Below are positions 21,328 through 38,778 of a stretch of 39,216 nucleotides of DNA, piece after piece (within the stretch, counting starts at the first letter, position 1; each line of letters opens with the position of its first letter). The stretch comes from Gammaproteobacteria bacterium (GTDB taxonomy: Bacteria; Pseudomonadota; Gammaproteobacteria; Pseudomonadales; Pseudohongiellaceae), in assembly GCA_018698975.1 (NCBI GenBank), contig JABIPQ010000023.1, positions 1 through 39,216 of the forward strand. Direction: 5' to 3'. Made by a program: the position numbers and the translations under genes. Under the pieces are notes generated by a model. That model was not told the DNA's origin. It saw nothing but the letters and a program-made list of their open reading frames with translations, and made no database searches.

Positions 21328-21347
21328 TTTATGCGTGCTTACCCCTA

Positions 21348-21390
21348 TATATAAACAATAAAAATTATATAAACAATAAAATATATAAAC
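21348..21390. repeat. A/T-rich tandem repeat between clpS and clpA
   Basis: TATATAAACAATAAAA occurs at 21348-21363 and 21366-21381, and a third partial copy (TATATAAAC) at 21382-21390: about 2.5 tandem units of 16-18 bases. It may contribute an AT-rich promoter region for clpA or simply reflect slippage. Confidence 0.7.
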
Positions 21391-21461
21391 ACGGTAGCTG
21401 CGCATAAAGACAAGAGTTACGCGTAACACTTACTAACAACATTTTATAGAATTTTAAAACT

Positions 21462-23759: not shown

Positions 23760-23807
23760 TAAAAAAGTCAGGAGCAAGGCAGGAACGAGTCAGGAAAGAG
23801 AACAGGA

Positions 23808-23841
23808 ACGGTGGGTGCTTAAAAAGCCCCGCCGTTTTTTT
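23808..23841 (+). terminator. Rho-independent terminator of clpA
   Basis: ACGGTGGG (23808-23815) pairs with CCCGCCGT (23828-23835), eight pairs with one wobble, then six to seven T. It lies 48 bases after clpA and just before the convergent infA, and probably ends clpA transcription. Confidence 0.85.
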
Positions 23842-25771: not shown

Positions 25772-27151
<1,380 letters not shown>

Positions 27152-33596: not shown

Positions 33597-34976
33597 ATGG
33601 ATTACCTGCCTATATTTATGCGAATCCAGGGTCAAAAGGCTCTGGTAGTCGGTGGTGGGCAGGTTGCGACTCGCAAGATTGCCATGTTGTTAAGAGCCGG
33701 TGCAAGTATTCGTCTGGTCGCGCAGGATGTAGATCTGCCTTTGGCTGAAATGCTGCAGGATGGCGAGCATGAAATTTTCCAGCGTGGCTATGAAAAGACA
33801 GACATTGATGGCGTTAAAATTGTGATCGCCGCAACTGATGATGAGCAGGTTAATCATCTGGTGTATAAACATGCCAGCAAGCTTAATTTGCCTGTCAACG
33901 TCGTCGACAAGCCCTCCCTTTGTGATTTTATTTTTCCTTCCATCGTGGATCGCTCACCAGTAGTGGTTGCCGTTTCCAGTAGCGGGCATTCGCCGATGCT
34001 GGCGCGTCTTTTGCGTTCCCGCCTGGAAACATTCATTCCTTCAGGTTATGGCAAGCTGGCTTCGCTTTTAGGTGAATACAGGGAGAAGGTGAAACAAAGT
34101 ATTCCACTGATGAGTCAGCGCATGCGCTTCTGGGAGAAAATTCTCGGCGGTCCTGTAGCTGAACAAATGGTAGCTGGCAAGGATGGTCAGGCAAGACAGC
34201 TTATGGAAGCGGCATTGGAAAGCGCTGACAATATTGTTAGCAATGGCGAAGTCTACCTGGTTGGCGCTGGCCCCGGAGATCCTGATTTGCTCACCTTTCG
34301 CGCACTGCGATTGATGCAGCAGGCAGATGTTGTGTTATTTGATCGCCTGGTGTCGCAAGAAATTCTAAATATGACGCGCCAGGATGCGGAAAAGATTCAT
34401 GTGGGCAAACAACGACAAAATCACACCATGCCGCAACAGGATATCAGCCAGTTACTGGTGAGTCTGGCGAAAGAAGGCAAGCGTGTGTTGCGCCTCAAGG
34501 GCGGAGATCCATTTATCTTTGGCCGCGGCGGAGAAGAAATTGAGGAATTGGCCGCGGCCGGAATTCCTTTCCAGGTAGTGCCGGGTATTACCGCTGCTTC
34601 AGGATGTGCCTCTTACGCCGGCATACCCTTGACGCATCGTGATCACTCTCAGTCAGTCCGCTTTGTCACGGGTCATTTAAAAAATGATACCTGCGACCTT
34701 AACTGGAAGTCCCTGGCAGAAGATGATCAGCAGACTTTGGTGTTTTACATGGGCCTGGTCAGCTTGCCGGTTATTTGCCAGGAACTCATCAAGCATGGCA
34801 TGCCAGAGAATAAAGCCATCGCGCTGATCCAGCAGGGCACCACGCCGTCACAAAAAGTTTATACCGGTACTCTGGCAACAATGCCCGACATTATTGCCCG
34901 TCAAGAGGTCAGGGCACCTACCTTGATAATAGTCGGTGATGTAGTTAGCCTGCATGAAAAGCTTGCCTGGCAGTAG
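33597..34976 (+). CDS. cysG: siroheme synthase CysG (trifunctional)
   Basis: CysG makes siroheme from uroporphyrinogen III, the cofactor of sulfite and nitrite reductases. The 459-residue protein has both halves. CysG-B (about 1-200) carries the NAD loop [26 protein letters not shown] and [14 protein letters not shown], giving precorrin-2 dehydrogenase and ferrochelatase. CysG-A (about 215-459) is the uroporphyrinogen methyltransferase with [35 protein letters not shown] and [19 protein letters not shown]. It ends a plus-strand run with serS and resembles E. coli CysG in length. Confidence 0.97.
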
Positions 34977-35013
34977 GACAAGGGGCAAGAATGTGTCAGA
35001 CCGGGTTAAAAAG

Positions 35014-35045
35014 ATAGAAAGTGGAAAGTGGAAAGAAGAAAGAAG
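35014..35045. repeat. heptamer tandem repeat, consensus GTGGAAA
   Basis: Consecutive 7-base units ATAGAAA, GTGGAAA, GTGGAAA, GAAGAAA and a partial GAAG run from 35014 to 35045. They lie 38 bases after the cysG stop, directly before a palindromic element. Confidence 0.65.
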
Positions 35046-35082
35046 TGTAGGTTGGGTAAGGCCTGTAAGGCCGTTATCTAAC
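35046..35082. repeat. imperfect palindrome resembling a dispersed repeat
   Basis: TGTAGGTTGGGTAAGGCC pairs, with mismatches and a bulge, with GGCCGTTATCTAAC around a short TGTAA loop. The left arm recalls the GTAGGTTGGGTTA type dispersed element known from many bacteria. It resembles the decayed copy at 31743-31776 only in the GTAGG start and general arrangement. Confidence 0.45.
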
Positions 35083-35117
35083 TTATTAACAGCCTTTAAT
35101 GTAGTTAGATTATATTT

Positions 35118-35645
35118 ATGACAACACCAGCAGTTCGAGAAGCAAGGCCAGAAGACAGCGCCAGTATTCTTCACTTTATTAATGAATTAGCGGTCTATGA
35201 AAAGCTGGCTCACGAAGTAGAAACCAGCGAGGCAATGATAGAAGCCACTTTGTTCGGGCCTGATGCAAAAGCCTTTTGTTTGATCTGCGAAATTGATGAT
35301 GAAGCAGTTGGCTTTGCCATTTACTTTTATAATTACTCAACGTGGTTAGGGAAATATGGCATCTACCTGGAAGATCTATATGTACCCCCCGAGCATCGTG
35401 GTAAGGGGGCAGGAAAAGCCCTGTTGATACATATCGCCAGTATCGCTATACAAAATAACTGCGGTCGCTTTGAATGGAGCGTGCTTGACTGGAATACACC
35501 ATCAATAGAGTTTTATAAGGCACTGGGTGCACGCGAGATGTCAGATTGGCATATGTATCGGGTGGATGGCGAAGCTTTGCAGAAGCTTGCTGATAAAGAA
35601 TATAAGGATAAAAGGATAAAAGGATATAAGGATATAAGGATATAA
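35118..35645 (+). CDS. GNAT family N-acetyltransferase (diamine acetyltransferase-like)
   Basis: The 175-residue protein is a single GNAT domain. It has the acetyl-CoA loop VPPEHRGKGAGKALL near residue 95 (RGxGxGxxL) and the strand YLEDLYVPP before it, plus VLDWNTPSIEFYKALGA, which is typical of the spermidine/thialysine acetyltransferase group. The substrate is not certain. The last 14 residues (KDKRIKGYKDIRI) are encoded by an octamer tandem repeat that also contains the stop codon, so they are unlikely to be functional. The ATG follows a 141-base gap after cysG. Confidence 0.88.
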   Translation: MTTPAVREARPEDSASILHFINELAVYEKLAHEVETSEAMIEATLFGPDAKAFCLICEIDDEAVGFAIYFYNYSTWLGKYGIYLEDLYVPPEHRGKGAGKALLIHIASIAIQNNCGRFEWSVLDWNTPSIEFYKALGAREMSDWHMYRVDGEALQKLADKEYKDKRIKGYKDIRI

Positions 35646-35665
35646 GGATAAAAGGATAAAAGGAT
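35602..35665. repeat. eight tandem octamers A(T/A)AAGGAT across the GNAT stop codon
   Basis: Eight exact head-to-tail 8-base units run in the order ATAAGGAT, AAAAGGAT x2, ATAAGGAT x3, AAAAGGAT x2. The TAA stop at 35643-35645 is inside the sixth unit. Because 8 is not a multiple of 3, a gain or loss of a unit changes the reading frame of the tail. Confidence 0.95.
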
Positions 35666-35754
35666 CATTGCTAAAGCTGCGCCAAAACAATTACCTGTAC
35701 CAAAGTAGGAGCAGTTTTAACGGCAAATAAAATTGCTCAAGGAATAAAAGTTAA

Positions 35755-36633
35755 ATGAATTTTTCAGATTATGCAGCACAGATAAAAGCCGTCGGCCGGG
35801 AAATCAGTATTGATGCATTGAAGGCAACCCGCGAACTAATCGCGCCGATGATTGATGAGGGTCTGCTGGAAGGCGTGGCTGTCACGCGTGATCTGCAGTA
35901 TGGCGAAGATCAACGACATCGCCTGGATGTGTTTACTGCTGAAGATTCAGGCTCGCTAAAACCCGTGCTTCTGTTTGTCCATGGTGGTGGTTTTATTGGT
36001 GGGGACAAGCATGCCGAGGGTAGTCCGTTTTATTCCAATATTGGCGCATGGGCTGCCAAAAATGGCTTTGCCGGCGTGAACATGACTTATCGCCTGGCAC
36101 CGGATCACCCCTGGCCAGCAGGTATAGAAGACATTCGTGGTGCGGTGGAATTCATTAAAGACAAGGGTAAGGACTATGGGCTGGATGCGGAGAAGATATT
36201 CCTTATGGGGCAATCGGCAGGGGGCGCTCATGCTGCTGGCTATATTGCCCACGAGTCATTTTATGGTGAAGAAGGTCATGGGCTGGCCGGTGCTATCCTG
36301 CTTTCGGCGGTATATGACTTTGTCGCTATGCCGACCACATTGATGGAGCTGGCCTACCTGGGCGAGGATGAATCCACCTATTACGCACGTTCATCCATTG
36401 ATGGCTTGCTGGATACCAGGATCCCTTTACTGGTCACCATGGCGGAGTATGATCCCGCCAAGTTTCAAGCCCAGACCCTGCAATTCCTGAATGCCTGGCT
36501 CGGTAAACACGGGGAGCTGCCCTGGTATGTGCACATGCTAGGTCAGAATCATTTGTCGGTGGCTCTCTATCTCGGCTTGCAAGGAGACTTATTGGGCCCG
36601 CAGTTAAAACGATTTATCGAGGAAAATATCTGA
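35755..36633 (+). CDS. alpha/beta hydrolase (HSL/BD-FAE-like esterase)
   Basis: The 292-residue protein has the oxyanion motif HGGGF at residues 76-80 and the nucleophile elbow GQSAG with Ser154. Asp233 (AEYDPAKF) and His266 (QNHLSVAL) complete the triad. DVFTAEDSGSLKPVLLFVHGGG and YRLAPDHPWPAGIEDI are typical of the hormone-sensitive-lipase/carboxylesterase group. No signal peptide is seen, so it acts in the cytoplasm. The substrate is unknown. It lies 89 bases after the octamer repeat and probably has its own promoter. Confidence 0.9.
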   Translation: MNFSDYAAQIKAVGREISIDALKATRELIAPMIDEGLLEGVAVTRDLQYGEDQRHRLDVFTAEDSGSLKPVLLFVHGGGFIGGDKHAEGSPFYSNIGAWAAKNGFAGVNMTYRLAPDHPWPAGIEDIRGAVEFIKDKGKDYGLDAEKIFLMGQSAGGAHAAGYIAHESFYGEEGHGLAGAILLSAVYDFVAMPTTLMELAYLGEDESTYYARSSIDGLLDTRIPLLVTMAEYDPAKFQAQTLQFLNAWLGKHGELPWYVHMLGQNHLSVALYLGLQGDLLGPQLKRFIEENI

Positions 36634-36650
36634 AGGGCAAGCAATAAGGA

Positions 36651-36673
36651 GCAGGGACAAAGAATTTCCCTGC
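36651..36673. other. hairpin before arfB
   Basis: GCAGGGA (36651-36657) and TCCCTGC (36667-36673) form a perfect 7-bp stem with a 9-base loop. It is not followed by a T-run. Its right arm overlaps the start of the heptamer repeats, and it ends 32 bases before the arfB ATG. Confidence 0.6.
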
Positions 36674-36697
36674 GACTTGCGACTTGTAACTTGCGAC
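36670..36697. repeat. four heptamer repeats TTGCGAC before arfB
   Basis: CTGCGAC, TTGCGAC, TTGTAAC and TTGCGAC run head to tail (36670-36697), ending 8 bases before the arfB ATG. This is the place where a ribosome site would be expected, and none is clear. Confidence 0.85.
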
Positions 36698-36705
36698 TAG
36701 TTTTA

Positions 36706-37122
36706 ATGATTTACATCGCCTCACATATTCATCTCCAGGACCACGAAGTGGAATACAACGCCACTCTGGCTCAGGGTCCTGGCGGACAGAATGTCAACAA
36801 GGTCAACACTGCCATTCAGTTGCGCTTTGATATCAATAATTCTTCACTGCCCCGGGCGGTTAAACAAAGATTGTTACGCATGCCTGACAGTCGCATCAGC
36901 AAGGATGGCGTGCTGGTCATCAAGGCAAAGGAAGAGCGTAGCCAACTGCGTAACAAGGAAGACGCGCTGGAACGACTGAGGACTATGATCAAGCAAGCCA
37001 TGGTCGTACCAAAAAAACGTATTCCTACCAAGCCAAAAAGGTCCTCTGTGAAAAAGCGCCTGGACAGCAAAACCAAACGCGGGCTGGTAAAAAATTTCCG
37101 TAAGTCCGTGAGTGAAGAATAA
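36706..37122 (+). CDS. arfB: alternative ribosome-rescue factor ArfB (peptidyl-tRNA hydrolase, YaeJ)
   Basis: ArfB enters ribosomes stalled on non-stop mRNA and hydrolyses the peptidyl-tRNA with a GGQ motif. The 138-residue protein has MIYIASHIHLQDHEVEY at the start, GPGGQ at residues 24-28, NKVNTAIQLRF, and a basic C-terminal tail (residues about 104-138, rich in Lys/Arg) that enters the mRNA channel. The length equals E. coli ArfB (140). I start at ATG 36706; TTG 36691 would add residues that are only the upstream heptamer repeat. Confidence 0.95.
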   Translation: MIYIASHIHLQDHEVEYNATLAQGPGGQNVNKVNTAIQLRFDINNSSLPRAVKQRLLRMPDSRISKDGVLVIKAKEERSQLRNKEDALERLRTMIKQAMVVPKKRIPTKPKRSSVKKRLDSKTKRGLVKNFRKSVSEE

Positions 37123-37269
37123 GGTGCAAGGAAGTCTCTGCTGATGCGCGCACTTTGTAATCTGCGTATAATCACTTTCTCGTTCAATGGCACCTTTCAA
37201 AGCTAAAGCTGCAGGTCGAATAAGGTTGCCATCCGGCAAATTACCCATAAAAAACAAAAGAAACCCTCT

Positions 37270-38778
37270 ATGTCAGAAGTCAGAACAAGAATTGCGCCAT
37301 CGCCTACTGGTGATCCTCATGTAGGCACCGCTTATATTGCTTTATTCAATATGTGCTTTGCCCGACAGATGGGCGGCAAGTTCATCCTGCGTATTGAAGA
37401 TACTGATCAGGTGCGCAGTACCAGGCAGTCCGAGCAGGAAATTCTCGACTCACTGCGCTGGTTGCACCTGGACTGGGATGAAGGCCCGGACAAGGGGGGT
37501 GACTTTGGTCCGTATCGGCAAAGTGAGCGCAGTGAGATTTATCAGGAGCATGTGGACAAACTGGTCAATGATGGTCATGCCTTTCCCTGTTTCTGTACTG
37601 AGGACCGTCTCACAGATTTACGCCGTAAACAGCAGGAAGAAAAAATTCAGCCCGGCTACGACGGTCATTGTCTGACACTGGACAAAGAAGATGTTCAGCG
37701 CAGAATCGATGCCAGGCTCCCTCATGTGATTCGCATGTTGGTGCCCGCCGACGGTAAATGTATCGTCAAAGATATGCTACGTGGTGATATTGAAATCGAC
37801 TGGCATCAGATCGACATGCAGGTGCTGATGAAATCTGACGGTCTTCCTACCTATCATCTTGCCAATGTGGTCGACGATCACCTGATGCAGATCACCCATG
37901 TAATCCGCGGTGAAGAGTGGATTACTTCTGCCCCGAAACATCTCAAGTTGTATGAATACTTTGGCTGGGAAGCCCCGGTACTGATTCATATGCCGCTTCT
38001 GCGCAATGCTGACAAGAGTAAGCTCAGTAAGCGCAAGAATCCCACCAGCATTGGTTACTATCAGAAGATGGGCTATCTGAGTGAAGCTGTAGTGAATTAT
38101 CTTGGCATGATGGGCTGGACTATGCCGACATCAAGCCGGGAAGAAAGTGCGGAAGAATTGTTTTCCGTTCAGGAAATGATCGATAACTTTGACATTAATC
38201 GCGTCTCCCTGGGCGGACCTGTCTTTGATACGGAAAAGCTCGATTGGCTTAATGGACGTTATCTCAGAGAAAAACTCTCAGATAAGGAATTCATCCAGCG
38301 CTTTGGGGAATGGGCCTTCAGGCCTGAAATAATGCATCAAATAATCCCGCTGATTAAACAAAGGGTGGAACGCTTTTCTGATGTGGCTCCTATAGCCAGT
38401 TTCTTTGTCAGTGGCATGCCCGTCATCGGTGAGACAGACTTTGAGCATAAACAATTAAGTCTCGAAGATAGCGTCAAAATTTTACAGTTTATCGCATGGG
38501 CGGTTGAATCATTGCCCGAATGGCACCGTGACCGCCTGGAGACGCTGTTAATGGGCATGGCAGGCACAATGGAAATCAAGGTTCGTGACTTTCTCTTTCC
38601 AGTATTCATCGCTATTGCCGGAACTTCAGTCTCGACCTCGGTAATCGACTCAATGGCTGTTCTTGGCAAAGACATGACCAGGGCGCGCCTGCGTCATGCT
38701 ATAGATGTGCTGGGCGGTGTATCGAAGAAAGGTGCCAAGAAACTGGAAAGCGAGTTTCGCAAGCTCGGAATAAACTGA
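37270..38778 (+). CDS. gltX: glutamyl-tRNA synthetase
   Basis: GltX charges tRNA-Glu and feeds tetrapyrrole synthesis. The 502-residue class I synthetase has the HIGH-type signature [14 protein letters not shown] (residues 9-22) and the KLSKR loop near residue 250. Zinc-type Cys are seen in FPCFCTED and DGHC, but the last His-type ligand of the E. coli enzyme is replaced here. The C-terminal anticodon-binding cage is present, and length is near the usual 470-500. The gene is 270 bases upstream of the tRNA pair that includes its own substrate tRNA-Glu. Confidence 0.97.

Follow-up and report, generated by a model that had tools for sequence, protein, structure and literature searches.

The window analysed in this work is the whole stretch of 39,216 nucleotides from one genome (G000), which is compared below with five congeners (G001–G005). 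A GNAT gene (35118–35645, plus strand; ORF, PF00583 with E 6.5e-20) encodes a thialysine/diamine-acetyltransferase-like protein of 175 aa. It lies between cysG and an alpha/beta-hydrolase (esterase) gene (35755–36633, plus strand; ORF and profile search), downstream of which arfB starts. At the 3' end of the GNAT gene, eight uninterrupted octamers A(T/A)AAGGAT, i.e., AAG and five further letters, were found on the GNAT-sense strand from 35602 to 35665 by TRF and direct reading, in the order ATAAGGAT, AAAAGGAT twice, ATAAGGAT three times and AAAAGGAT twice. The TRF row spans 35595–35665 with a period of 8, 8.9 copies, 92% matches and a score of 107, the top score among the ten rows of the window (next 74). 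At lag 8, 53 of 56 positions in the array match, and the best of 100 window-length first-order Markov sequences reached 31. The TRF start includes a degenerate first unit, AAAGAAT (35595–35601, plus strand), in which the AAGN5 pattern starts at 35596 and which codes for Lys-Glu, also the C-terminal residues in the congeners G002 and G003. Three consecutive AAGGATAW units were found at a single place in a pattern search of the genome, namely in this array.

The stop codon of the GNAT gene (TAA, 35643–35645, plus strand; ORF list and frame reading) sits in unit 6. The initial annotation had described eight tandem octamers that hold the GNAT stop, and a repeat that begins in the coding region and runs past it; the TRF row, the lag-8 matches and the position of the stop confirm both. 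Its remark that each unit carries one TAA holds as well, as eight TAA start within 35602–35665. The claim that a stop appears within three units in any frame was wrong: the first stop in the frame of the gene, at 35643, comes 41 nt into the array, and those of the two remaining frames are at 35603 and 35617. This uneven phasing of the stops is due to the units coming in two forms.

The GNAT orthologues are 160 or 161 residues long in all five congeners, with the ends ..KE (two), ..NE, ..NK or ..RS. Measured against these ends, the array codes for a C-terminal tail of 14 residues (162–175; 35601–35642, plus strand), adding the sequence YKDKRIKGYKDIRI in the window. The closest solved structures, 12jc (thialysine acetyltransferase, E 4.7e-52) and 2fe7, aligned with residues 4–159 and 5–159, respectively. 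In a structure model from 21 aligned sequences (mean pLDDT 90.1), blocks 161–170 and 171–175 had values of 63 and 56 and the other blocks 80–98; the tail is modelled as a low-confidence stretch behind an intact core. Simulated loss or gain of a single unit gave proteins of 161–177 aa, keeping only the first one to eight units gave 166–190 aa, and removing all units gave 182 aa. Residues 1–161 were constant in every case, which, together with the low pLDDT of the tail, bears out the proposal that a change in copy number would alter the tail only and leave the core intact. The octamer is missing at the GNAT 3' end in five of five congeners and is therefore not fixed in the genus. The enzyme may simply tolerate the tail as a side effect, and the GNAT case illustrates that a short tract can shift a stop codon and so lengthen a protein.

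Between the end of the array and the next start (35755) lie 89 nt. The remainder of the spacer up to the esterase gene (35646–35754, plus strand) holds neither a reverse-complement partner array nor an unusual fold: no inverse arm for the octamer array was found in its own spacer (score 10), folding was ordinary (z −0.41 and 0.32), and no REP was seen there by reading. A function of the array as a terminator was rejected, as there is no terminator-like site in 34900–37300, no inverse arm and no unusual fold. A known structured RNA was likewise rejected, because the only matches of the window to Rfam at gathering score were two tRNAs; two tRNA genes lie at the contig end (39049–39121 and 39143–39215). 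Two related repeats of period 7 flank the locus, both detected by TRF and a lag-7 scan. The first, of AAGTGGA type, lies in the cysG–GNAT spacer (35010–35045, plus strand), and just behind it reading and a scan for REP heads gave a GTAG-headed, REP-like imperfect palindrome (35046–35085, plus strand), which we take to resemble the REP of E. coli. The second, of AAGTCGC type, is antisense and lies just before the arfB start (36671–36698, minus strand).

Period and anchor of the intergenic heptads

Hypotheses on these heptads were framed on a first sample of G000, which comprised the window and at most 20 kb from the start of each of 40 contigs (578 kb, 66 kb of it intergenic). The held-out sample, 20 further contigs with 241 kb (29 kb intergenic), is small and contains seven arrays; both samples with the window make up 28% of the genome. 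Gene calls were ORFs of at least 90 aa with little overlap, made by ORF length alone, and arrays located at the end of a contig were excluded as edge cases. Intergenic runs of at least ten matches in the first sample numbered 26 at lag 7, none at lags 4–6, and one or two each at lags 8, 9, 10, 12 and 13. Other raised lags were 11 (10 runs), 16 (5) and 24 (6), and the further multiples of 7 gave 17, 8 and 4. Six runs at lag 7, none at lags 4–6 and one to three at lags 8–13 were obtained in the held-out sample, and the congener G005 (275 kb) had 12 at lag 7 and 0–2 at lags 4–6 and 8–13.

The lag-7 units of the genome include AAGGTAC, AAGTCGC, AAGATAA, AAGTTAC, AAGGATA, AAGTGGA and AAGGCTC, among others; a small number of units turn up repeatedly, AAGGTAC for instance at 11 places. 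Either AAG or CTT, never both, was present in the unit of 37 of the 38 intergenic lag-7 arrays, in 7 of 7 held-out arrays and in 6 of 15 arrays of G005. In-step AAG triples with differing letters between them were counted 38 times at lag 7 versus one to three times at lags 5, 6 and 8–12, and 11 times versus 0–2 in G005. In-step AAA triples were also frequent at lag 7 (41), yet they reached 11–27 at other lags. Furthermore, a count of anchors made without a preset motif on imperfect lag-7 stretches gave AAG in 57 of 82 and AAA in 43, and the corresponding values of a Markov control were 5 of 21 and 10. The same count in G005 gave AAG in 12 of 29 stretches and ATA and ATC in 13 each, and units such as GCAGGAT occur there. 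The AAG anchor is clear in G000 and weaker in G005. The 8-nt pattern is rare: four consecutive AAGN5 gave 10 overlapping matches in G000, six of them from the GNAT array, and three in the control.

Place, strand and inverted partners of the arrays

In the first sample, 26 arrays are in the sense of the preceding gene, and 14 of them start no more than 9 bp from its stop; the mean relative position of the sense arrays in the spacer is 0.20, and 11 arrays face a start instead. The held-out sample contains four sense arrays, at −2, 7, 49 and 58 bp (two of four within 9 bp), and one that faces a start. When AAG triples are considered, the AAG strand in all 14 convergent cases (12 in the first sample and two held out) matches the sense of the gene whose stop is nearer. 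Co-directional spacers contain 12 sense and four antisense arrays (10 and 3 in the first sample, 2 and 1 in the held-out one), and 7 of the 12 sense arrays start no more than 9 bp from the stop or cross it; in G005, five co-directional arrays are sense and two antisense. Where two arrays share a spacer, the order is AAG-then-CTT in five cases and CTT-then-AAG in none, with two ++ pairs and one −− pair; G005 has one AAG-then-CTT and one −− pair. Other genes besides GNAT also stop within an array: at L133 of G000 a gene does so inside AAGAATA/AAGGATA heptads, and at L258 (1501–1559) of another, unrelated genus an ORF stops inside AAGAATT-type heptads, a heptamer parallel to the GNAT octamer.

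In each of 26 spacers, the longest array was compared with the reverse complement of its own spacer and of the others; own spacers matched better, with a total score of 423 against a permutation mean of 341 (p = 0.003); direct copies were not significant in the same permutation test over the 26 spacers (p = 0.13). Tested singly, 2 of 30 spacers had an inverse partner at p < 0.05, and 5 of 30 scored above the entire comparison set. The proposal that every spacer holds an inverse partner was therefore rejected, since only the pooled test is significant. Transcribed spacers with an array fold more strongly than others (median z −2.3, n = 23, versus −0.9 for 60 controls drawn from 261; p = 0.004). 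Moreover, of 43 intergenic AAG arrays, 7 (3/28, 3/7 and 1/8) have a GTAG REP-like head at most 60 nt downstream, compared with about 1% of random intergenic points, and none has one upstream in mirror orientation. Matches to Y1_Tnp over the cut-off numbered two in G000, three in G005 and one in G003, and there was none in G002.

The same spacers in congeners and the spread of the heptads

For the comparison of spacers among the congeners, the arfB query was used without its first residue, and the spacer behind the GNAT gene of G005 was taken from the comparison of orthologue ends, as its row in the spacer comparison extended past the stop. Behind cysG, the heptads are AAGTGGA in the window, AAGTYAC in G002, AAGTYGC in G003 and AAGAGRC in G005, and none were found in G001 and G004; by reading, an extra gene lies between cysG and GNAT in G001, G004 and G005. 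In the cysG–GNAT spacer of G002 and G003, the heptads are followed by GTAGGTCG..ATCCGACAT, in the same order as in the window. Behind the GNAT gene, the octamer of the window corresponds to AAGTYAC-like heptads in G002 and G003, and no AAG array is present at this place in G001, G004 and G005. In G004 (L172), the GNAT–esterase spacer contains copies of GTTAATG about 12 nt apart, a short repeat of another kind. Before arfB, the antisense AAGTCGC of the window has antisense AAGTYAC-like counterparts in G002 and G003. From this comparison, the position and the AAG are kept in part of the genus, with differing units. G005 contains a second octamer array, AAGGATAA with 5.8 copies, behind another gene, in sense and 4 bp past its stop.

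Genome-wide counts of four consecutive AAGN4, given here against the reversed control as overlapping matches, of which one long array gives many, were 305/36 in G000, 217/17 in G003, 164/4 in G002, 125/4 in G005, 78/26 in G004 and 33/1 in G001. Most of 113 other genomes of the family were at control level; the largest counts were 29/41 (G694), 16/9 (G034) and 13/6 (G752), and small excesses occurred, e.g., 8/0 in G692 and 7/0 in G028. No intergenic lag-7 runs were detected in 200 kb each of G033 and G007, from other genera of the family, or in 60 kb of the congener G001. The pattern AAGTYRC, three times in a row, matched 7 of 293 genomes of the order, and its reversed control three. Across the class, five consecutive AAGN4 matched 87 of 369 genomes and were far over control in G440 (168/0), G383 (82/0), G470 (226/43), G372 (190/61), G352 (43/0) and G358 (32/0). 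The reversed control was equal or higher in G563 (585/670), G437 (168/309) and G399 (35/291), and other anchors therefore exist. Counts of reversed GAAN4 were very high in G399, G437, G561 and G563, where there seem to be heptads with another anchor.

Among 16 loci of other genera and families, six have a sense array at most 30 bp from the stop or across it (L252, L254, L255, L258, L219 and L222), and three have a sense array further away (L253, L221 and L218). The remaining seven do not fit or cannot be judged: L256 and L257 are antisense, L220 lies in a divergent spacer, L223 lies at a contig end, and L259, L260 and L261 are inside ORFs. Larger samples, partly chosen around known matches, were taken from G132, G191, G263 and G232. 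Lag 7 had 11 runs in G132 (188 kb) versus 0–1 at lags 4–6 and 8–13, and nine versus none in G191 (100 kb); G263 (37 kb) had two lag-7 runs and G232 (40 kb) none. In G132 and G191 together, seven co-directional arrays are sense and five antisense, and six convergent arrays fit and two do not, so the sense rule is weak in these two other families. All close pairs there (L235, L241, L242, L244, L245 and L246) have the order AAG-then-CTT. The AAG heptads are strong in the genus of the window, near control in most genomes of the family, and recur in scattered genera of the class.

Likeness to described repeats and origin of the octamer array

The general layout of intergenic heptamers has already been published. 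According to the accessible text of PMC4692102, GGGNATC heptamers of Xanthomonas and Nostoc are intergenic, on average 28 nt from the upstream gene and 160 nt from the downstream gene, often form convergent inverted pairs, with 70 and 75 such cases in two species, and stand in long form at different genes in related species. The AAG class resembles them as intergenic heptamers near the upstream gene with some inverted pairs. However, GGGNATC keeps a constant G tract (GGGA, quadruplex), whereas in the AAG class the AAG is constant and the remainder varies; and sense and antisense GGGNATC are about equally frequent (30% and 35%; 35% each), in contrast to 12 of 16 co-directional arrays in sense here. 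The GNAT unit, AAGGATAW, has no GGG tract. In the available part of PMC4679880, TAACTGA heptamers of marine Beggiatoaceae are described as intergenic (169 sets) with stops in all three frames, some of them overlapping stop codons; a unit not divisible by 3 that has stops in all frames and overlaps the end of an upstream gene is, to this extent, already in print. TAACTGA is one fixed unit, usually just upstream of starts, and related heptamers rarely repeat in Beggiatoaceae, whereas the AAG class has many units, mostly behind stops; the octamer differs from TAACTGA in its unit as well.

GTAG REPs, as the accessible text of PMC3733652 describes them, are post-stop elements of convergent and co-directional spacers in many bacteria that often supply the stop codon. 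They are palindromes of 20–40 bp with a GTAG head and not tandem 7- or 8-mers, but adjoin some AAG heptads; the octamer array is a direct repeat that has neither the GTAG head nor the palindromic stem. In simulation it would not act as a phase-variable on/off switch either, because copy changes there affect solely the tail after residue 161. A 2007 survey cited in PMC4692102 found heptameric simple sequence repeats over-represented in bacteria, and period 7 likewise dominates the intergenic repeats of the window's genome; as cited in the portion of PMC4692102 available, the survey describes no anchor triplet or orientation rule. A literature search, short of most subscription journals, found no published AAG-anchored heptads with otherwise variable letters. 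Papers found under the letters of the unit did not, by their titles, concern bacterial repeats; the nearest descriptions found were PMC4679880 and PMC4692102. Thus the layout is published, and an AAG-anchored, otherwise variable unit was not found described. Heptamers are over-represented between bacterial genes, and this genus lets heptads be watched: the anchor triplet stays, the remainder of the unit differs between sister species in the same spacer, and strand and position follow a stop-codon rule. This rule may reflect binding or a mutational bias.

We hypothesize that the octamer array represents a rare 8-nt variant among the genus-wide post-stop arrays of AAG and four letters, one that has expanded over the GNAT stop, and we regard this as the likely origin. 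It carries AAG in the unit in the sense of the upstream gene, as the class does, and where class arrays start at a stop or within a few bp of it, the octamer begins where the GNAT of the congeners ends. As its period is 8 instead of the 7 of the class, it is called a variant and not a plain member. Class arrays mostly occupy the spacer right behind a stop, with the AAG strand in the gene sense, and some have a reverse-complement array as a partner, with which part of the arrays could form a stem. Growth and homogenisation by strand slippage or unequal exchange would explain why units resemble each other inside one array yet differ from those that a sister species has in the corresponding spacer. 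At the GNAT gene, a heptad-type tract would have taken one extra letter and then expanded over the stop; as a unit of 8 nt is not divisible by 3, this extends the reading frame by 14 codons. The class might act at the mRNA 3' end as a stem, a decay barrier or a partner of GTAG REPs; the octamer array itself has no inverse arm. The presence of AAG behind stops might come from such an RNA 3'-end role with inverse arms, from a link to REP transposition, or from a mutational bias in transcribed purine-rich DNA.

It is conceivable, though we think it somewhat unlikely, that AAG every 7 nt in sense behind stops is a distinct element. In that case, a protein that binds RNA or is of RAYT type would recognise the AAG, or a polymerase bias would account for it; the four other letters would drift and be homogenised locally, and the element would have arisen or spread in several unrelated genera of the class and would rarely slip to an 8-nt register, as at the GNAT gene. 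The weakness of the sense rule in other families lowers the odds of this proposal.

The array could also be an isolated microsatellite, produced by one slippage event at the GNAT 3' end and unrelated to the other repeats of the genome. The octamer is indeed unique in the genome, is absent at GNAT in five of five congeners and has a period unlike the rest; against this, it shares the AAG core, the strand and the position of the heptad class, and the AAGGATAA array of G005 is a second octamer directly behind a stop, which makes an isolated origin unlikely. We consider it distinctly unlikely that the heptads are dispersed elements linked to REPs, with a RAYT-type transposase spreading or seeding them along with GTAG REPs. 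The enrichment of GTAG heads downstream of the arrays (7 of 43 versus about 1% at random, with no mirrored upstream case), the Y1_Tnp matches in G000, G005 and G003, and the recurrence of some units such as AAGGTAC would agree with it, but 36 of 43 arrays have no REP nearby, no REP is read in the spacer of the octamer, G002 is rich in heptads yet has no Y1_Tnp match, and REPs and arrays may merely share the post-stop niche.

A further explanation is that the locus is maintained because a change in the number of units costs nothing and makes the GNAT tail or the 3' spacing variable, in which case the stop in each unit would have a purpose. Although the core stays intact in the simulated unit changes and the tail is modelled at low confidence, we judge this to be very improbable: the octamer is absent in five of five congeners, 27 of 44 AAG/CTT heptad arrays have a unit free of stop triplets on the AAG strand (17 have one), and the class sits behind many unrelated genes, mostly behind the stop and outside coding sequence. 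A stop in each unit as the reason for the class was rejected on the count of units free of stops. An assembly or sequencing artefact is scarcely credible, for even though the draft genome comprises 151 contigs, an array of 64–71 bp with two alternating unit forms is unlike the false duplication of a single unit, and similar arrays occur in independent congeners.

Apart from the heptads, a second intergenic period is 11 nt, with 10 such runs in the first sample, three in the held-out one and two in G005; these are often just two copies of unrelated 11-mers, e.g., at L125 79–122, L129 8429–8450, L147 6299–6321 and L148 6310–6331. No common unit was seen among these 11-nt repeats, which form a set separate from the heptads. 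The window itself contains an 11-mer, AGTCAGGAACG, in four degenerate copies at 23766–23810, which starts 6 bp after a stop codon and is followed by what reads like a hairpin and a T run. A 12-mer, ATAGTTAGATTG, with 3.6 copies lies at 26747–26789 in a divergent spacer of 426 bp and scores at lag 24 too, and an AT-rich 17–18-mer, ATATATAAACAATAAAA, with 2.6 copies was found between two co-directional ORFs at 21347–21391.
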